58,503 nucleotides of DNA from Kofleriaceae bacterium (GTDB lineage Bacteria > Myxococcota_A > Polyangia > Haliangiales > Haliangiaceae): NCBI GenBank assembly GCA_024762925.1, contig JANTGM010000029.1, forward strand, positions 1-58,503, written 5' to 3'. Made by a program: the position numbers and the translations under genes. Within the stretch, counting starts at the first letter, position 1. Each line of letters begins with the position of its first letter. Of the stretch, positions 3,984 through 15,340 are shown in pieces. Below the pieces are notes generated by a model. That model worked only from the letters and a program-made list of their open reading frames with translations, did not search any database and was not told the DNA's origin.

Positions 3984-4649
3984 TCACAAGGACACCACCG
4001 TAGCTGTGTAGCCATCGAGTGCGCTGACGACCTGCGCGAGAGCCTCCGGTTCTACTTGTGTTGGATCGTAGGTCACGGACGCTAGGCCGTCGGAGAAGGC
4101 GATGCTTGCCTTGACCACGCCTGGCGTGTCAGTTAGCGCCGTGACGATGTGTGTCACGCAGCTCTCACAGGTCATGCCTTCGACATTGAGACTCACCTGC
4201 TTGGAAGCTGCCGTAAGCGCCGTATCCCCGCTCTTCTCGGTCTGAGCAAACGCACCAGCGATGTGCGGGTAGCTGGCAAAGAAGAGCACGGCCAATGTTG
4301 CCAGCCACAACATGGGCTTTCCGGCACGGCGAGTCCGCGGTGCAGGACAACCGCAGGCGTCGCCCTCACTGGCATCGATGGTGGCAGTCTTCGGCTTGCG
4401 ATACACCAGGTAGAATCCAATCCCCAAGAGCAGAGCGGTCACGCCGAGGAAGAGGGGACGGTACGCTTCCAAGGCCGCGGCGACGCCGAGCCCGGAGACA
4501 CCTAGGACCGCCAAAATGGCGGGCAGAACGCAACAAGAGGATGCGGCAATGGCCGCGACAATAGCGCCGGCCATGGTGGCGCGTGCAGCTTTGGTCTTCG
4601 GTGTATCGACGTTCTGCTCGAGAGTGCAATTTGCGTTTGAATTAGACAT
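3984..4649 (-). CDS. merTP: MerT-MerP fusion, mercuric ion transport protein
   Basis: A 221-residue inner-membrane protein for moving Hg(II) into the cytoplasm. The N-terminal part is MerT-like: the first membrane helix holds the paired cysteines (AASSCCVLPAILAV), a second helix follows, then a cytoplasmic loop with CGCP, then a third helix. The C-terminal 70 residues are a MerP-like HMA domain with GMTCESC. Fusions of this kind are known in mer loci. I start at ATG 4649 because AGGAA lies about 6 nt upstream. Its start overlaps the stop of the anti-sigma-like gene by 8 nt, so it belongs to that operon. Confidence 0.9.
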   Translation of the reverse strand: MSNSNANCTLEQNVDTPKTKAARATMAGAIVAAIAASSCCVLPAILAVLGVSGLGVAAALEAYRPLFLGVTALLLGIGFYLVYRKPKTATIDASEGDACGCPAPRTRRAGKPMLWLATLAVLFFASYPHIAGAFAQTEKSGDTALTAASKQVSLNVEGMTCESCVTHIVTALTDTPGVVKASIAFSDGLASVTYDPTQVEPEALAQVVSALDGYTATVVSL

Positions 4650-5511
4650 AGAGGTTCCTTTGTTGGTCACCGCGAAGGTGAGTTATTAGAAATGCGGCCA
4701 TCGCCAGGAGCAGCGCACCTGCCAGGGTTCCGGCAAGAACGGGCCAAGCGTTCACAGTGGGTACATCGCAGCACTGCGCAAAGATGAGAGGTAGTTCTGC
4801 GCCCAGGAGCACAGCTCCAATCGAAGCCATGGTTGCGAGAGAGGCGCTAGCACCACGAGCAATCACGAGCGCTATGGCAATGGGAATGATGCCAAAGAGA
4901 AGCCCGACGAGTAGCTCAGAAGCCATGCCGCTGGTCTGGAGCAATGTGCTGCTCATGAGGGCGAGCGATGGAGGTGGACAGAGAAGGCTCATCACGAGCA
5001 CCGCCCCAACGCCAGAGAGTGCGGCCCTGGGCCAGCGACTCGCAGGACTGCCAGACACTGTGAGATGGACTGCTAGAGCAATCGCACCCGTCCACGCTGC
5101 AACGCACACCAGAAGTGGTAGGCCCGAAGCCAAGGGCGTGCGAGCGGTTGTGAGCGCTAAGGCGACAATGGCAAAGGCTGTGGCGAAGGCGATGGACGCA
5201 ATCGCACGAGTCCTCGTAACGGGTGTCAAATCCTGGCGGACCTTCGCAAGGACCGTTGCGCGCACACCGGCATTAGCGCTGGCGAGCAGTGGTGTGGAGA
5301 GCAAGCCGTCTGCTTCTTTGGCTCCACTGAGCGAGGACGAGCATGCAGCACAGCTGTCACAGTGCCCTTGGACCTCGTCCTGGACCGCAGAGCTGGCGAT
5401 TCCAAGAGCCACTTCTGCGACAAGAGGCTCCATCACCAGACACATGCCATTGCGCTTGCTCTCAGAATCCAAGCGACTCCCGGCTTGCGATATCTTCAGT
5501 TTCCTCGACAT
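4642..5511 (-). CDS. Zinc-finger anti-sigma-like membrane protein
   Basis: A 289-residue protein. The N-terminal part (about residues 30-70) carries an HCDSCAAC motif, the Hx3Cx2C pattern of zinc-binding anti-sigma (ZAS) domains. It is followed by about five or six hydrophobic segments with a Cys pair (QCCDVP) near the C-terminus. It lies 33 bp downstream of an ECF sigma gene and overlaps merTP, so the simplest role is a membrane anti-sigma factor that senses metal or thiol state and releases the sigma. The multi-span membrane part is longer than in most anti-sigmas and might itself handle metal. Confidence 0.7.
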   Translation of the reverse strand: MSRKLKISQAGSRLDSESKRNGMCLVMEPLVAEVALGIASSAVQDEVQGHCDSCAACSSSLSGAKEADGLLSTPLLASANAGVRATVLAKVRQDLTPVTRTRAIASIAFATAFAIVALALTTARTPLASGLPLLVCVAAWTGAIALAVHLTVSGSPASRWPRAALSGVGAVLVMSLLCPPPSLALMSSTLLQTSGMASELLVGLLFGIIPIAIALVIARGASASLATMASIGAVLLGAELPLIFAQCCDVPTVNAWPVLAGTLAGALLLAMAAFLITHLRGDQQRNLYV

Positions 5512-5544: not shown

Positions 5545-6132
5545 TTACGCTGGCTCGTCGTTTTTTTGGGAACTCGTCGTTTTTTTGTGACTGTCCGTAT
5601 TCTCGAGCACCGCACGCAGCGAGGCGAGCCCACGAAATACGCGCAATTTCGCAGCGTCTTCACTGCACCCAAGCTGCTCTGCCGCCTCGCGGTAGTCGAG
5701 TTCTAAGAATCGACATAAGACGACTGCCTCGCGCTGGGCATCGGAGAGCTGGCCTAGCGCACGCCAGACGCGCCCAAGCTCATGACTCGCATCCGTCCGT
5801 GCAGCGGCATCCGAATTTGTCGCAAGCGGCTCATCGCTCAGGTGCGCTTCCGGTTTCCGCGAACGACGGCGGCATTCCTGCTTGTAGAGGTTGTAGGCAA
5901 TGGAATTGATCCATGCCGCAACGCCGCCGCCTCGATACCGCGAACGTGCACGATGAACATTCAAGAAGGTCTGCTGGAGCAAGTCCTCGGCTCGGGTGCG
6001 GTCGCCAATCGCTCGCAAGAAGAAACTGAAGAGCTTCCGCTCATAGCGGTCATAGAGAATCTCAAACGAAGCAGCATTGCCCCTCGCGTAGGCATGCATC
6101 AGCGCTTCGTCTGTAGGGCTCTCTTTGGACAC
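5545..6132 (-). CDS. ECF RNA polymerase sigma factor, mer-controlled
   Basis: About 195 residues with sigma region 2 (DRTRAEDLLQQTFLNVHRAR) and region 4 (LSDAQREAVVLCRFLELDYREAAEQLGCS) linked by a short spacer, the normal ECF plan. I chose the GTG at 6132; a TTG at 6144 would lie inside the predicted -10 box. The promoter just upstream contains the same palindrome as the merR promoter, so MerR probably controls this sigma factor. Downstream genes are an anti-sigma-like protein and merTP. The targets of the sigma factor are unknown. The C-terminal tail is rich in Lys, Thr and Ser. Confidence 0.85.
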   Translation of the reverse strand: MSKESPTDEALMHAYARGNAASFEILYDRYERKLFSFFLRAIGDRTRAEDLLQQTFLNVHRARSRYRGGGVAAWINSIAYNLYKQECRRRSRKPEAHLSDEPLATNSDAAARTDASHELGRVWRALGQLSDAQREAVVLCRFLELDYREAAEQLGCSEDAAKLRVFRGLASLRAVLENTDSHKKTTSSQKNDEPA

Positions 6133-6143
6133 GGTACCCCACA

Positions 6144-6175
6144 AGCATGCACTCCGTACCGTGGTACGGAGTCAA
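6144..6175 (-). promoter_or_regulatory. MerR-type promoter/operator upstream of the ECF sigma gene
   Basis: On the minus strand: -35 TTGACT (6175-6170), a 20-nt spacer, -10 CATGCT (6149-6144). The spacer region carries the dyad CTCCGTACC-gt-GGTACGGAG (6152-6171). The over-long spacer with a central palindrome is the hallmark of MerR-activated promoters. The half-sites CCGTACC/GGTACGG are those of the merR promoter at 8.37 kb and closely resemble the classical mer operator of Tn21/Tn501. Confidence 0.85.
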
Positions 6176-6289: not shown

Positions 6290-6560
6290 TCCAGAGGCAT
6301 AGAACTGGCTCGGTTCTTCGCGCCTTGTCAAAGAACGAGCTCCCGTCGCCAGCACATTTCTATTCCTCTGAGCCGCGCACGAGTGCGCGATCCATGGATA
6401 TTGATTCGTGATCGCGAAGTCAGCTCGTTTGCTGGCGAGGCGGGAAGAGGGAGCTTGCTGGGGCAAGCGACCGAGGAACAACGAAGAAGACGGGCTGAGC
6501 CAGTCTCTCCAGCGGGCGAGAAGACGAGTGAGCGCGTTCTATCTTCATGAATCGCGCACG
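6290..6560. repeat. Dispersed intergenic repeat R1, copy 3 (most complete)
   Basis: This copy contains all modules in order: one shared with 23-95, one (about 6393-6471) shared with the copies at 2.6 and 9.2 kb, and one (6466-6545) found inverted at 100-190. It fills the gap between the selenoprotein stop and the ECF sigma promoter. It probably separates the two mer transcripts. Confidence 0.8.
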
Positions 6561-6562
6561 AG

Positions 6563-7438
6563 CTATTCCTTAGCACCTTCGCCAGCGGCAAGTGCCCCTT
6601 TAAGGGCTGTTTCGAGGTCCCCCTCGTCCCCTTCAGTGAAGTTCTGATGTCGATAGGCAACCTTGCCGTCGGCACCAATGAGAAAGATAAGAGGAATACT
6701 CGCGCCCTGTGCATACAGGGCGAGCACCTCTCCCTCGGGATCAAGCGCAACGGGATAGGAGATTTTTAGATCCGCGACCAATGTTTCAAGGGTGCCGCGA
6801 TCATCAGGTTCGTCGATGCTAACCGCGATGAACTCCACGCCCTGCCCCTTGTACTCCTCGTAGAGCTGGACTAGGTGCGGTGCCTCCTTGATGCATGGCT
6901 TACACCAGCTCGCCCAAAACACAATGACTGTTGGCGCCTGCCCAAGGGCCTTCGCGAAATCGAATGTGCCGCCTCCGAGAAGTGGGGCAGTAAACGTCAT
7001 CGCTGGCGATCCCAGACCAAGGCCATCCTTCTTTGCCTCTTCGGATGCAGTGTCCCAACGCACCACATAGTTCATCTGGCGCTCCTTCGACTGCACAGCG
7101 ACCGCCTGCTCCACAATCGCATGGGTCAGTTTGGCGCCTGGCGCCACTGAGAGCGTAAAAACCTCTCTTTTGCCGTCAAACGTTGCTTTTGAAACTTCTG
7201 GAAGCCCTTCCAGGGCTCCTGCGACCGCATTCGGTCAACCCATTCACAAAGCGCCATTGACGCGGCGCATACCGTCGATACGAAATTCCAATGGCTCGGT
7301 CTCTTGGATCGCCGAGGCCGGAGCATTCTGCGTCACCCTCTTGCCGCTAGGTTGTGCTTCCTTAGTGGACGTGCAGCCAACGGCAGTCACACCAAGAGTG
7401 AGGACCAACGCAAGTTCATAAACTATCTTCGTCATCAT
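6563..7438 (-). CDS. Predicted selenoprotein: HMA (UxxU) - thioredoxin fusion lipoprotein
   Basis: A single 292-codon frame if two TGA codons (7244-7246 and 7235-7237) are read as selenocysteine. Order: lipoprotein signal (VLTLGVTAVGC), linker, HMA domain, TlpA/ResA-type thioredoxin domain with WCKPC. In the HMA domain the sequence FRIDGM is followed a few residues later by U-M-G-U, then PNAVAGALEGLPEV; this aligns with CxxC-A-xx-V-xx-AL-xx-L-xx-V of MerP/CopZ with both Cys replaced by TGA. A 7-bp hairpin with a UGGAA loop lies 22 nt after the second TGA. The start ATG overlaps the upstream stop (ATGA). If TGA is a true stop, this is a lipoprotein fragment plus an isolated thioredoxin. Likely role: periplasmic mercury (or other soft metal) capture and thiol/selenol reduction. 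Confidence 0.75.
7201..7219 (-). promoter_or_regulatory. Candidate bacterial SECIS element
   Basis: On the minus strand GGAGCCC-TGGAA-GGGCTTC forms a 7-bp stem (one G-U) with a 5-nt loop holding GG. The loop begins 22 nt after the second in-frame TGA and 31 nt after the first. Bacterial SECIS elements lie inside the coding region a short distance after UGA and typically have a G near the start of a small apical loop. The fit is good by eye; no folding program was run. Confidence 0.6.
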
Positions 7439-7932
7439 TCGTCTCCTATCGAGTTCCCACCACAACAGCAAGAAGCCTCCTCTTTGTTGGGCGAAGCTTG
7501 AGTGCCCAACTTCTCTTGCGCCGCCTTAACCACTGCCCGAACGTTGCCAAGGCAACAGCTCCCCTGCGGGTTGGTCTCCTCGCAGCGGTCTTCGCCGTTG
7601 CGACACTTTTGTGTGATGCTCTCAATAACAGAGCTTGTTCCCTCTCGCTCGACCTCTTTATTGATCTCGTCGACAGAGTGGTCGAAACAATAGCAAACCA
7701 GACGCTTTGCCCTGTCTGACTTTTGAAACACCGGGACTGTCACCGAGTCGCTGGCAAAGCGCTGGCCGTCCTCGGGACGAAAGTAGACGATTTCACAAGA
7801 CGCGGTCGGGCAGAAGCGGAATCCTTCAAAGTTGCCGGCGCTAGGCATCGCGGCGCTAGACAGAAGAGTTCTTAGGGTCACTGCTTTGACAGCGCGCGTA
7901 CTTTGCGCGCACGACGGGCACGAAAACTTCAT
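7435..7932 (-). CDS. Putative iron-sulfur-binding metallochaperone (CopZ N-domain-like)
   Basis: A 165-residue soluble protein with an N-terminal zinc-ribbon-like CPSC, a second Cys pair around 'CPTASC', the 'VCYCFDHSVDEI' signature and later 'NPQGSCCLGN', which together match the zinc/[2Fe-2S] domain of CopZ-type chaperones. The C-terminus ends in a Cys cluster (SCCCGG). It is thus a likely cytoplasmic metal carrier. Start and stop overlap both neighbours by ATGA, so merR, this gene and the selenoprotein gene are tightly coupled. I use the internal ATG at 7932 because it is the one overlapping the merR stop. The metal is inferred to be mercury from the operon. Confidence 0.8.
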   Translation of the reverse strand: MKFSCPSCAQSTRAVKAVTLRTLLSSAAMPSAGNFEGFRFCPTASCEIVYFRPEDGQRFASDSVTVPVFQKSDRAKRLVCYCFDHSVDEINKEVEREGTSSVIESITQKCRNGEDRCEETNPQGSCCLGNVRAVVKAAQEKLGTQASPNKEEASCCCGGNSIGDE

Positions 7933-8354
7933 GAGCGGGCTCGCTTCGTCGGCTTGTCGTCCAATGCATCCAAGATGGGACACTCGCGAACCGAGCCCTT
8001 GCTTGCGCAGGACTTCACCAAGACCCCAAGTGCCTTCTTCATCGCACGGAGACTTTGAATCTTCTCTTCAATCTCCTCCATCTTTTGCGTCGCCGTCGCC
8101 TTCGCTTGCTCACAACTGGCGTCGGTATTTTCTCGCAACACGAGGAGTTCTTCGACTTCGTAGAGGGTGAAGCCAAGCTCCTGCGCTCGCTTGATGAAGC
8201 GCACAACGCGGACCGCCTCGGGTGGATACTCTCGATAGCCCGAGCTTCGCCTGTGTGGCTCCTTGAGGATTCCACGGCGCTCATAAAAGCGCAGCGTCTC
8301 CACATTGACGCCCGCAGCCTTCGCCACTTGCCCTGTCCGCAACTTCCCAGCCAT
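7929..8354 (-). CDS. merR: MerR, mercury-responsive transcriptional regulator
   Basis: A 141-residue MerR protein: N-terminal winged helix (RTGQVAKAAGVNVETLRFYERRG), linker helix, dimerisation helix, and the metal loop. The three Hg-binding cysteines of classical MerR are present: one at the start of the dimerisation helix (CEQAKA) and two in CASKGSVREC, spaced C-x8-C as in Tn21 MerR. It therefore most likely senses Hg(II). The ATG at 8354 starts only 6 nt after the predicted -10, which suggests a leaderless or near-leaderless transcript. It is the first gene of its own controlled operon, not divergent as in Tn21. Confidence 0.9.
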   Translation of the reverse strand: MAGKLRTGQVAKAAGVNVETLRFYERRGILKEPHRRSSGYREYPPEAVRVVRFIKRAQELGFTLYEVEELLVLRENTDASCEQAKATATQKMEEIEEKIQSLRAMKKALGVLVKSCASKGSVRECPILDALDDKPTKRARS

Positions 8355-8360
8355 GACAAC

Positions 8361-8392
8361 AGTATGCACCCCGTACCTAGGTACGGAGTCAA
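8361..8392 (-). promoter_or_regulatory. MerR promoter/operator (merR operon)
   Basis: Minus strand: -35 TTGACT (8392-8387), 20-nt spacer, -10 CATACT (8366-8361). The spacer holds a perfect 16-bp palindrome CCGTACCTAGGTACGG (8371-8386). This is nearly the classical mer operator. The predicted start of transcription falls at or next to the merR ATG. Confidence 0.9.
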
Positions 8393-8806: not shown

Positions 8807-9178
8807 TCTGTCCCAAGAGCATCAAACATGCCAAAACGCAAACACTGGCAATTGAACACTTGCTCAAAACCATTCGAGCCAAAGCGGCAATAGTCCGACA
8901 TTGAGGTCATGGTTTGTGAGTGTTTCGGGATGAAGTATGGGCGTGATCTGTTTCAGGATGCAGCGACATACTTCGCAATGTCGAAAACCTCTACATCGCG
9001 TCGAAGACAGCTGGTACCTCGTGACTTGGATGTGTCGTCGACTTCGGTTTCTCGTTCCGGGCAGCAAGACCACAGCCTGCGATCTCAACCGACGTGGGCT
9101 GACCTATCGGGGCAAAGGAAGAGGGAATTCCTCTCGAGGTCAAAGCGATTCTAGTGCGCGATCCATGGACATTGATTC
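8807..9178. other. Gene-free stretch with part of a repeat
   Basis: I see no supportable gene. Short open frames exist on the plus strand between 8909 and 9180 but show no start signal or recognisable domain. The right end (from about 9150) is the beginning of an R1 repeat copy. Confidence 0.4.
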
Positions 9179-9247
9179 GTGATCGCGAAGTCAGCTCGTT
9201 TGCTGGCTAGGCGGGAAGAGGGAGTTTGCTGGGGCAAGCGACTGAGG
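9150..9247. repeat. Dispersed intergenic repeat R1, copy 4 (partial)
   Basis: Matches 6385-6475 and 2600-2690 with few differences, including the shared segment starting at GATCCATGGA. It ends where the following ORF's distinct sequence begins. Confidence 0.75.
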
Positions 9248-9729: not shown

Positions 9730-10464
9730 ATGACGGTGTGTGGACCCAAACTCGACGCCTCCGAAGAGGCGGCGCTGCTGGAGAGGATCCTGAATGGCAC
9801 TCCTCCCGAGAGGGAGGCAGCTTACGAGCAGATCTTCTCCAGCTTGCGTGAGCCGGTGTACGCGCTGTGCCTCCGTCTGACTGGGAATACCATAGATGCG
9901 GAGGATGCACTCCAGGACGCCTTTGTTGCGGCTTTTCGCGGGCTCAGCGCATTTCGTGGTGATGCTCGGATATCAACATGGCTCTACCGCATCGCGGTTC
10001 GGGAAGCACTACGACAAAAGAGACGTCATGCAGGCAAGGAGATACAGGCCGAGATTGACGTACCCGCGCCGGAGACAACCAATCCTGCCATTCGGAAAGA
10101 GCGCGTGGAACTATTCAACCAGGCGTTGGATCGCCTCAGCGCCGACCATCGAACCGTACTCGCGATGTTCACAGTTGAGGGGCTGTCTCATGATGAGATC
10201 GCCGATGCATTGAAGATTCCCACAGGCACGATTTGGTCGCGGCTGCATAAGGCACGCAAGAAGCTCGCGGCTGAAATCAAGGTTCTCGAACAGACGCCTA
10301 GATCAGGCGCTGTCCGTCCCAACAATCGCAGGGGGACACAAGTACACGAGCGCGAAAGGTCCCATAGCACCCTTCAGACAATTCTTGTCAGCTCGGGCGT
10401 TTACCTTCGGGCATTGGCCACATGGGCAGTACGTTGGAGTTTGAGAGACGCGCAGGTTGCGTGA
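9730..10464 (+). CDS. ECF RNA polymerase sigma factor
   Basis: A 244-residue sigma factor. Region 2 includes DAEDALQDAFVAAFRGLSAFRGDARISTWLYRIA, region 4 is LSADHRTVLAMFTVEGLSHDEIADALKIPTGTIWSRLHKARKKL. The start at 9730 follows the previous stop directly. The part after about residue 195 is basic and then unusually hydrophobic and does not belong to the usual sigma fold; it may be a C-terminal extension or read-through into non-coding DNA after a lost stop. No anti-sigma gene is adjacent. Its targets are unknown. Confidence 0.8.
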   Translation: MTVCGPKLDASEEAALLERILNGTPPEREAAYEQIFSSLREPVYALCLRLTGNTIDAEDALQDAFVAAFRGLSAFRGDARISTWLYRIAVREALRQKRRHAGKEIQAEIDVPAPETTNPAIRKERVELFNQALDRLSADHRTVLAMFTVEGLSHDEIADALKIPTGTIWSRLHKARKKLAAEIKVLEQTPRSGAVRPNNRRGTQVHERERSHSTLQTILVSSGVYLRALATWAVRWSLRDAQVA

Positions 10465-10525
10465 TGAAAACCCAGGGCGGGCTGGTTCAGAAGAAACGTT
10501 GTCGTGGTAGGGCTCTCGCTCAACC

Positions 10526-10954
10526 ATGATAGCTTCCATGGCTATGAGCCTCCGCCGCATCGATACACTAGCAGAGCATCAGGTTCACGCCTTGACGGAG
10601 TTGTTCAAAGAACTCTGGTGGACGCCGAACCGAAGTCAAGAGCAGGTAGAACGCATGCTCCAACACTCGATAGTCGTCGCCTTCGAGGATAGTGAACGGC
10701 AGCTCATCGCATTCGCGAGAATTCTCAGCGATCAGGTATTCAAAGCTCTGATTCTTGATGTCGTGGTCAGGCCTGACCAGCGCAACACCGGTTTGGGCCG
10801 CGTTTTGATGGACGCAGTTCTACACCACGAATCCCTCACAGAGGTTCGCCATTTCGAACTTTACTGTGCCACCGAAATGAAACCCATGTACGAGAAATGG
10901 GGATTCTCAGGTTCTCTTGGCGATCTGACCTTCATGCGCCTGGTTCGGAATTGA
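10526..10954 (+). CDS. GNAT-family N-acetyltransferase
   Basis: A 142-residue protein with the GNAT motifs: strand LILDVVVRPDQRNTGLGRVLM (motif A, acetyl-CoA pyrophosphate loop RNTGLG) and the C-terminal 'ELYCATEMKPMYEKWGF' motif B. Such enzymes move an acetyl group from acetyl-CoA to an amine; the substrate cannot be deduced. It stands alone between the sigma gene and a gene-free stretch. Confidence 0.85.
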   Translation: MIASMAMSLRRIDTLAEHQVHALTELFKELWWTPNRSQEQVERMLQHSIVVAFEDSERQLIAFARILSDQVFKALILDVVVRPDQRNTGLGRVLMDAVLHHESLTEVRHFELYCATEMKPMYEKWGFSGSLGDLTFMRLVRN

Positions 10955-12270: not shown

Positions 12271-12475
12271 CTGCGACACTGGTCACGCTAGTAGCGCCTG
12301 TGGCTAGTGCGATCGTGGAATCACGATACCTTGGAGCTATTCAATCTGCGACTGAAACACTCCTTCGACATAGCCGATAGGAATCAGTCCAGGAAGTGTC
12401 TCTCAGACCAGCTGAGCCTGCCCCGAAAGTTGGACACCGAATCAAGGAGGTTATCCTTGGGAAGAGGTGGCCAGC

Positions 12476-12771
12476 ATGGCAAAGAAAAAGAGAACGACCA
12501 GACGATACACGGATGAATTTAAGCGTGAGGCAATTCGGCTTCTCGAGAATCGCGGGGACACAACGGCGGCCGAGATTGCGTCTAGCCTTGGCATCGCTCC
12601 AAGCATTCTGTATCAGTGGCGCAAGCAACTCGGCTCCGCTCCAGAGCGTTTGATTGACAATGTGAGCCTGGAAGAGGAGTCACGCCGTCAGAAACAGGAG
12701 ATTGCTCGTCTGCGAAGGGAGAATCAAACGCTAAAAAAGTCAATAGCGCTCTTCGCGAAGGATCTGGACCT

Positions 12772-12775
<4 letters not shown>
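12476..12775 (+). CDS. IS3-family OrfA, transposase DNA-binding subunit
   Basis: A 99-residue helix-turn-helix protein (RRYTDEFKREAIRLLENRG...AEIASSLGIAPSILYQWRKQ) followed by a leucine-zipper-like helix. This is the intact orfA of the IS3 element. In intact elements a -1 frameshift near the end joins it to OrfB. Confidence 0.85.
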
Positions 12776-13641
<866 letters not shown>

Positions 13642-13693
13642 CCGAAAACGGTAGGCGGCAATGACCGTCCAACTTTTGGGGCAAGCTCAAGCC

Positions 13694-13840
13694 CCGCTTT
13701 GTTGGACAGACTGTGTCTTGATTGTGAGGTCGCAAATGCCGGTGCTTGGCTCATACTCGACAGGGCTTTCGTAGTCTGGCGTCGAAGGCATGCGTTTCCG
13801 GCTGTAGAGATGCTCGATGTACTCGGATCATCGAAGCCTG
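13694..13840 (-). mobile_element. Remnant of a second IS3-family element (3' end)
   Basis: Minus strand encodes YIEHLYSRKRMPS followed by DYESPVEYE, the standard C-terminal end of an IS3 OrfB, then a terminal-repeat-like end (TCAAGCCCCGCTTTGTTGGAC read on the plus strand near 13687-13707). It abuts the right end of the first IS3 element back to back. Confidence 0.7.
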
Positions 13841-13906
13841 GGACTTACATCGTACGGTCTCGGGCTACCCCCGCATTTGAGTTCGGCGGCCTGAGATGCT
13901 CGGTCC

Positions 13907-14140
13907 ATGCGAAGACCGATTGCGTCACTGAGAAAAGAAATCGCCAAGGTCCACATCGATGGCGCGGGCCGGCGTCGATATGACAAGGAGCTCCGAAGGC
14001 GGCTCGTGCATTTCGCTCGAGCTGAGCAAGCTCGCGGACGCCCCATCATCAAGATTGCCGAGGAACTCGGCATTCGCTAGCAGGTCCTCGGCGGCTGGCT
14101 CCGCAAGGCGGGAAGAACAACGCCCATCCGCCAGGTCGAG
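13907..14140 (+). pseudogene. Helix-turn-helix 5' part of the IS66-type transposase, with in-frame stop
   Basis: An ATG at 13907 opens a frame (RRRYDKELRRRLVHFARAEQ, then PIIKIAEELGIR) that looks like a transposase DNA-binding domain. It is cut by TAG at 14078-14080, then continues in the same frame (QVLGGWLRKAGRTTPIRQVE) straight into the transposase at 14141. So the original protein was probably longer at its N-terminus, or this is a separate small accessory gene with a mutated end. Confidence 0.55.
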
Positions 14141-15340
14141 GTGGTCGAAGAGAAGACGGAGGTGAAGCTCCCCGATAACGACAACCTCTGCGACTGTTGC
14201 GGCAATCCTCTCATCGCCATGGAAGGCATCGCGGAAGACAGCGAGCGCGTGAACGTCGTGGAGCGCAAGTTCGTCGTCCAGAAGATTCAGCGACAGAAGT
14301 ACCGATGCAAGTGCCGGGCGGCGGTGGTCACCGCACCTGCACCCGCTCAGCTCGTCGTAGGTGGCCGCTACTCTGTCGAAATCGCGGCGCACATCGCGGT
14401 GGAGAAGTACCTGAACCACATGCCACTAGATCGCCAGAGGCGCTCTATGGGCCGGTTGGGCCTCGACATCAGCACCTCGACGCTCTGGGACCAAATCAAC
14501 GCGCTAGCGGGTCTGCACGAGGCCTCCTACGACCGCCTGCAGGACTACATCCTCGGCGCCGATGTCGTCGGCATCGACGAGACCTGGTGGCGTATGCTGG
14601 ACAAGAAGCCCAACAAGCGCTGGTGGGTCTGGAGCATCACCGTGCCCAATGCGGTTTGGTACACGATTGCACCGAGCCGCTCCGCCGACACCGCCAAAGA
14701 GATCATCGGCGACTACGAAGGCACCTTGATCGCCGACGCCTACAAAGTCTACGAGACCGTGACCAAAGGCAACGAGCACATCATCCTGGCGCTTTGCTGG
14801 AGCCATGCGAGGCGGAAATTCATTGAGGCCGAGCCAAACTATCCGCAATGCGCCGAGGCCATCGAAATCATCGGCGGGCTCTTTGCGATTGATCGAGAGA
14901 CCGCCGATCCAAACAGGCTGGAGGGAGACGAGAAAATCGCCGCAATCGAGGAGCGCGGGGCAGCCCGCGCCGAACGGGCACCACCCATATTGGAGAAACT
15001 CCGAGAGTGGTGCTTAACGCAGCGAGGACTGCCGCGTTCAGGTCTGCGCAAAGCGATCGACTACACGCTTGGCCATTGGAAAGGGCTCACCGTCTTCGTC
15101 GATGACCCATTCGTGCCCCTCACGAATAACGATACGGAGCGCGAGCTGCGCACCATTGTGCTCGGGCGCAAGAATCACCTAGGCAGCAAATCAGAGCGCG
15201 GCACCGAGGTCGCGGCCATCCTCTACACGCTGATTGAGACCGCATATCTCAATGGCCTCGATCCGTACAAATACCTCGTTGAGGCCACCTACGCTATGCT
15301 CGAGGACCCGGCGGCAGTTCCGCTGCCGCTAGATCGCTAG
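14141..15340 (+). CDS. IS66-type transposase
   Basis: About 399 residues. It has the N-terminal zinc-binding Cys region (LCDCCGNPL...KYRCKCRAAV), the DDE core with VVGIDETWWRM, 'GTLIADAYKVYE', 'LALCWSHARRKFIEAE' and 'FVPLTNNDTERELRTIVLGRKNHLGSKSERG', all typical of IS66/TnpC transposases, and the C-terminal 'YLVEATYAMLEDP'. The start is a GTG continuing a longer frame from 13907. Core motifs look intact, but the upstream stop may have inactivated the element. Confidence 0.85.
   Translation: MVEEKTEVKLPDNDNLCDCCGNPLIAMEGIAEDSERVNVVERKFVVQKIQRQKYRCKCRAAVVTAPAPAQLVVGGRYSVEIAAHIAVEKYLNHMPLDRQRRSMGRLGLDISTSTLWDQINALAGLHEASYDRLQDYILGADVVGIDETWWRMLDKKPNKRWWVWSITVPNAVWYTIAPSRSADTAKEIIGDYEGTLIADAYKVYETVTKGNEHIILALCWSHARRKFIEAEPNYPQCAEAIEIIGGLFAIDRETADPNRLEGDEKIAAIEERGAARAERAPPILEKLREWCLTQRGLPRSGLRKAIDYTLGHWKGLTVFVDDPFVPLTNNDTERELRTIVLGRKNHLGSKSERGTEVAAILYTLIETAYLNGLDPYKYLVEATYAMLEDPAAVPLPLDR

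Follow-up and report, generated by a model that had tools for sequence, protein, structure and literature searches.

INTRODUCTION

HMA selenoproteins with a UxxU motif, that is, with two selenocysteine (Sec) residues, are already catalogued: NCBIfam models them as NF041115 (UxxU_metal_bind), and the 2022 and 2026 selenoproteome reviews list them as a "metal-binding protein (putative mercuric reductase)" with the motif UxxU (PMC9312934, PMC13188914). Here we describe a gene from a Kofleriaceae bacterium (GenBank assembly GCA_024762925.1, contig JANTGM010000029.1; the 58,503-nt stretch of DNA analyzed is referred to as the window) that is predicted to encode a lipoprotein in which an HMA-like domain with two Sec residues is fused to a thioredoxin domain. 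Like this fusion, NF041115 proteins carry Sec at both metal-ligand positions of an HMA-type domain; unlike them, the fusion has a longer loop before the first Sec, is a predicted lipoprotein, carries a thioredoxin domain, and is encoded in a MerR operon, and it scores 16.2 and 17.1 bits against the family model, below the cut-off of 95. Sec in a mer-like heavy-metal system, as found here, is also known from NF045683 (MerT/CopZ fusion-like heavy metal transport selenoprotein) and from "putative mercuric transport protein" selenoproteins, but NF045683 is a MerT membrane transporter with an HMA domain and no thioredoxin, and this model gave no match to the fusion in the NCBIfam scan.

Three further systems are comparable in part. 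MerP (TIGR02052), the periplasmic Hg(II)-binding HMA protein, resembles the fusion in its mer context and in having an exported HMA domain, but it has Cys in place of Sec, a canonical loop, and no thioredoxin, and the fusion scores 14 bits against its cut-off of 92.55. The ResA/TlpA thiol-disulfide oxidoreductases have the same C-terminal domain fold and WCxxC motif as the fusion, whereas the described families lack an HMA domain (83.1 bits for the fusion against the ResA model NF002854, with a cut-off of 170). Lastly, the selenoproteins of the Sec-assisted organometallic (SAO) operon are thought to handle mercury or organometals, much as we propose here, but those described in the available text of PMC13188914 are different proteins, none of them an HMA-thioredoxin fusion.

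An earlier reading of this locus, made from the letters of the DNA alone (the sequence-only reading), knew of no described example of the full fusion, and we likewise found neither a description in the literature nor a model in NCBIfam of an HMA-thioredoxin selenoprotein fusion. What is new is an apparently unmodelled, well-supported selenoprotein family with two Sec at the metal site, metal-responsive control, and its own reductase attached; it makes testable whether bacteria hold mercury with selenium, beyond redox catalysis. With standard gene callers, the fusion gene would be cut short or begun at an internal GTG, and such genes are therefore probably misannotated.

RESULTS AND DISCUSSION

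Two TGA codons in the frame of an HMA-thioredoxin gene

Retranslation from 7438 to 6563 on the minus strand, with TGA read as Sec (U), gave MMTKIVYELALVLTLGVTAVGC...GMRRVNGAL-U-MG-U-PNAV...WASWCKPC...AKE*, in which the two TGA codons are the sole internal stops; this bore out the earlier claim of one frame with two TGAs spaced U-M-G-U (Table 1). A Cys is likewise present after the hydrophobic stretch in the relatives described below, and the product would be lipid anchored. The C-terminal domain matches Pfam AhpC-TSA over residues 143 to 262 (79.9 bits, cut-off of 26).

Table 1 Features of the fusion locus in the window
Feature	Position	Strand	Detail
MerTP-like mercuric transporter, C-terminal HMA (Cys)	3984..4670	-	profile matches
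Membrane protein with HCxxC-like N-terminus, possibly an anti-sigma factor	4642..5511	-	no Pfam match
ECF-type sigma factor	5545..6144	-	Pfam match
Second mer-type operator, TTGACTCCGTAC-CACG-GTACGG	6154..6175	-	before sigma factor-MerTP gene set
Predicted fusion selenoprotein gene: lipoprotein signal, HMA-like domain (UMGU), TlpA/ResA-type thioredoxin	6563..7438	-	291 aa, stop TAG
TlpA/ResA-type thioredoxin domain (AhpC-TSA/Redoxin)	6602..7012	-	WCKPC at 6893-6907
HMA-like domain, residues about 50-130	7049..7291	-	lengthened metal loop GM-RRVNGAL-U-MG-U
Predicted SECIS hairpin	7201..7219	-	loop UGGAA at 7208-7212; 22-23 nt from Sec68, 31-32 nt from Sec65
TGA, predicted Sec68	7235..7237	-	kept in 5/6 relatives; TGC (Cys) in G331
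TGA, predicted Sec65	7244..7246	-	kept in 6/6 relatives
Predicted signal peptide, lipobox-like end (AVGC)	7373..7438	-	mature N-terminus probably Cys22
Putative iron-sulfur/CopZ-like metallochaperone (NF047645, zf_CopZ)	7435..7983	-	TGA stop overlaps fusion ATG (ATGA)
MerR-family regulator	7929..8369	-	three metal-ligand Cys of Hg-MerR
Mer-type promoter/operator, TTGACTCCGTAC-CTAG-GTACGG	8371..8392	-	before merR-copZ-fusion; 0 mismatches, none expected

The match of the N-terminal part to Pfam HMA (PF00403; residues 59 to 98) reaches 21.0 bits (E = 4.4e-4), below the gathering score of 24.8. Relative to ordinary GMTCxxC domains, whose loop spacing the fusion does not share, about six residues are inserted between GM and the first Sec. 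When the HMA parts of the fusion proteins were compared with ordinary HMA domains by hhalign, the probability was 97.3% (E = 1.8e-11), with the UxxU pair aligned to CxxC, and the profile of these parts matches the solved HMA structures of MerP, the MerA N-domain, and CopA. The sequence-only reading had put the pair exactly where HMA has CxxC; that position is upheld by the alignment, and the longer loop and the subthreshold Pfam match refine it. A single-sequence AlphaFold model had a pLDDT of 43 and was used only for its order of strands and helices, which at this low confidence is E-H-E-E-H-E in the HMA-like domain, as expected for HMA.

Relatives in other genomes keep the TGA codons

A class-wide search (318 genomes) yielded three full-length orthologues, in G030, G092, and G119, with both TGAs in GALUMGUPN and overall identities to the window protein of 49%, 41%, and 44%, respectively. 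A fourth full-length orthologue, G569, which has UMGU and a TlpA-type thioredoxin, lies outside the class and was recovered by a search with the HMA part in 379 genomes of the phylum. Two distant HMA-thioredoxin fusions from the latter search have a different thioredoxin domain: G527 (ULAU, WCLPC) and G331 (ULSC, WCAPC), the latter with a Sec/Cys exchange at the second position of the pair. With a seven-row profile, fusion members were separated from ordinary HMA proteins by a score gap of about 45 bits, and repeat searches brought up neither another member nor a Cys-Cys fusion in the genomes searched. The sequence-only reading had proposed a search for homologues with Cys at both TGA positions; those found have Sec-Sec (G030, G092, G119, G569, and G527) or Sec-Cys (G331). 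When genome contigs were searched with the whole protein, only thioredoxin-domain relatives appeared, and tblastn of the fusion against plasmids gave no match.

The presence of the same TGAs in independent genomes rules out a sequencing error. A GTG-started ORF of 194 aa does exist, and if the TGAs were true stops, the thioredoxin could be translated from this GTG (at 7147), and the locus would then be a pair of independent genes or a gene in decay. However, the orthologues preserve the protein sequence of the segment between the TGAs and the GTG and share no start codon at a common position, and both TGAs recur in five genomes, followed by a hairpin that covaries; the presence of the Sec machinery, described next, also argues against this reading, which we consider extremely improbable.

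Sec machinery and a shared SECIS hairpin

The search for selA, selB, selC, and selD proposed together with the sequence-only reading found all four in the source genome. Its tRNA-Sec scores 67.6 bits, in agreement with aragorn (anticodon TCA), and SelB (331.8 bits), SelA (579.5 bits), and SelD (373.7 bits) are all above their curated cut-offs; the selA and tRNA-Sec genes lie on different contigs. Among the carriers of the fusion, selA and selD are above the cut-offs in all seven, selB in all four examined, and tRNA-Sec in G000, G030, and G119, whereas G092 (89% complete) has selA, selB, and selD and no tRNA-Sec above the cut-off. A tRNA-Sec match above the cut-off was obtained in 151 of the 318 genomes of the class, about half, and tRNA-Sec in the carriers is therefore weak evidence by itself. 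The selD gene of the source genome (L158; contig C125, 12235-13164) contains an in-frame TGA, which makes this selenophosphate synthetase probably a selenoprotein too.

In the window, G030, G092, and G119, the RNA downstream of the TGAs carries GCCCUGGAAGGGCU, whose apical loop can be read as GGA or UGGAA. The hairpin with a UGGAA loop had been noticed 16 nt past the second TGA in the sequence-only reading, and it proved to exceed chance both by covariation and by conservation of synonymous codons. It fits the bacterial SECIS model set out in the available text of PMC13188914 (loop of 3 to 9 nt, stem of 4 to 16 bp, G within the first two nucleotides of the loop, spacing of 16 to 37 nt, and MFE of ≤ -7.5) for both UGAs; the window hairpin has an energy of -12.3 kcal/mol. 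Across seven sequences, 81.6% of cells are paired, compared with 68.7% after shuffling, and four of the seven pairs show changes on both sides (compensatory); the covariation score of 0.401 (shuffled, 0.150) was reached by 0 of 500 shuffles and is well above slid controls. When only columns with invariant amino acids were considered in the window and the three same-class orthologues, codons were identical in all four sequences at 5 of 8 sites in residues 66 to 82 but at 5 of 60 elsewhere (Fisher p = 0.0011). Comparison of the minimum energy of the SECIS region with synonymous shuffles was uninformative; we therefore rely on covariation and codon conservation. One hairpin would direct the reading of both UGAs as Sec.

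Both TGAs kept in independent genomes, together with this SECIS, lead us to reject true stops, whether of two genes or of a pseudogene. A general reassignment of UGA would fit poorly with the TGA that ends the upstream copZ-like gene and with the tRNA-Sec of the genome. On the evidence of six relatives from other genomes, both in-frame TGAs are very probably true Sec codons, and since the Sec machinery, the TGA-keeping relatives, the SECIS hairpin, and the lack of a conserved internal start codon agree, insertion of Sec into the fusion protein is predicted with near certainty. None of the three objections that the sequence-only reading had raised against itself held: the Sec machinery is present, Sec homologues exist, and the TGAs appear to be neither errors nor stops.

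A MerR-type operon and two exact mer-type operators

The fusion gene is the third in an operon with the order merR, copZ-like, fusion, in which the genes overlap head to tail and the stop codon of the copZ-like gene is a TGA. The sequence TTGACTCCGTAC-N4-GTACGG occurs exactly at 8392-8371 and 6175-6154, with a chance expectation of none. The best alignments of the regulator are to Hg-MerR structures, and none of the three metal Cys is missing from it; TIGR02051 is its top MerR-family model at 141.1 bits, under the cut-off of 150.85, and the next model scores 114. The exact operator and a MerR with three metal-binding Cys lend support to the MerR-controlled operon of the sequence-only reading. 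The sigma factor gene at 5545-6144 is apparently under MerR control.

Mer-type contexts recur in some of the relatives. The fusion of G030 is closely preceded by a MerR gene (59% identical); in G092, the same mer-type operator is found 17 bases before the fusion start codon, and the contig also carries MerR, CopZ-like, and MerTP-like genes. No mer-type gene was found in the surroundings of the fusion in G119, G331, and G527, and mercury may therefore not be the common substrate.

Cd, Pb, and other soft metals would also be compatible with the Cys triad and the type of operator, the triad being common to the Cd/Pb regulators CadR and PbrR. Together with a CopZ-like neighbour that scores above its cut-off and copper ATPase domains as the top match of the HMA profile, this leaves room for the same chaperone-plus-reductase mechanism with a soft metal other than mercury, such as copper (Cu(I)), Cd, or Pb. 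Against such a substrate stand the mer-type operator, the rank of TIGR02051 as the top-scoring model for the regulator, and the MerTP gene in the second operon, and we regard it as improbable.

Two further putative Sec HMA loci in the source genome

The source genome encodes two further exported HMA proteins with two TGAs each, U-PSG-U on contig C15 and U-PDA-U on contig C83, which score 51 to 66 bits against NF041115 (cut-off of 95). On C15 (L113), the HMA gene at 9810-10140 (minus strand) is divergent from a thioredoxin-like lipoprotein gene at 10323-10781 (plus strand); three residues separate the two Sec in its U-P-S-G-U. The thioredoxin-like lipoprotein has an in-frame TGA of its own (DKUGGC), and both C15 genes are putative selenoproteins. 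On C83 (L112; 8064-8400 and 8733-9434, minus strand), the U-P-D-A-U HMA protein is encoded downstream of a TlpA-type lipoprotein gene. A Sec HMA domain is thus paired with a thioredoxin in three instances in one genome (the fusion, C15, and C83), and we therefore favour a working link in which the thioredoxin would reduce the selenol pair.

Proposed function of the fusion

The fusion is most likely an exported soft-metal chaperone, with Hg(II) the probable metal, that has a thioredoxin of its own to regenerate the selenol pair. MerR control and the nearby MerTP gene point to Hg(II), which a selenol pair would be expected to bind more tightly than thiols. Expression of the operon would be induced via MerR, and the UxxU selenol pair of the HMA-like domain would capture the metal outside the cytoplasm. 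By reducing a diselenide or freeing the selenols, the attached TlpA/ResA-type thioredoxin (WCKPC) would then allow the UxxU site to act repeatedly in an oxidising compartment, and the captured metal would be handed to the MerTP importer encoded nearby. Sec coding, as far as sequence can show it, domain make-up, and mer-type operators are read from the DNA; lipid anchoring, the identity of the metal, the flow of electrons, and the hand-over to MerTP are what we infer. For the mercury/reductase mechanism we see a slightly better than even case, and the whole explanation (Sec-Sec lipoprotein, Hg(II) capture, recycling by thioredoxin, hand-over to MerTP, and induction via MerR) is the one we hold, with moderate confidence, to be the best.

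The same Sec-Sec protein could instead use UxxU as a redox centre that shuttles electrons between its thioredoxin and an oxidised envelope partner, with a role as a diselenide reductase or a metal-stress repair enzyme. Sec is mostly found in redox motifs, and the covalent joining of thioredoxin to the HMA-like domain, the Sec HMA and thioredoxin-like gene pairs at C15 and C83, the unusual length of the metal loop, and the three relatives with no mer genes found nearby would all fit such a role. We nonetheless think it unlikely, as the domain is related to HMA with the pair at the metal-ligand position, and three carriers have MerR-type contexts. Within the preferred chaperone reading, a more general and tentative proposal, to which we give somewhat less than even weight, is a modular seleno-metallochaperone system in which a two-Sec exported HMA domain would capture Hg(II) as a bis-selenolate and a dedicated thioredoxin would supply the reductive recycling within the system. 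The thioredoxin would be either fused, as in the window and six relatives (one of them UxxC), or encoded by an adjacent gene, as at the two other loci of the source genome.

Repeats and transposase-like ORFs around the locus

Near the mer-like region, at 12467-15340 of the window, lie ORFs that by eye resemble IS3-type and IS66-type transposases, which suggests that the region may be mobile. A dispersed 95-nt repeat is found at 2599-2693, 6382-6476, and 9153-9247 of the window, with copies 81 to 96% identical to the middle one, which lies just past the 3' end of the fusion gene. It is adjoined by a 92-nt repeat present at 19-110 and 6313-6404, and a similar stretch occurs on contig C15.
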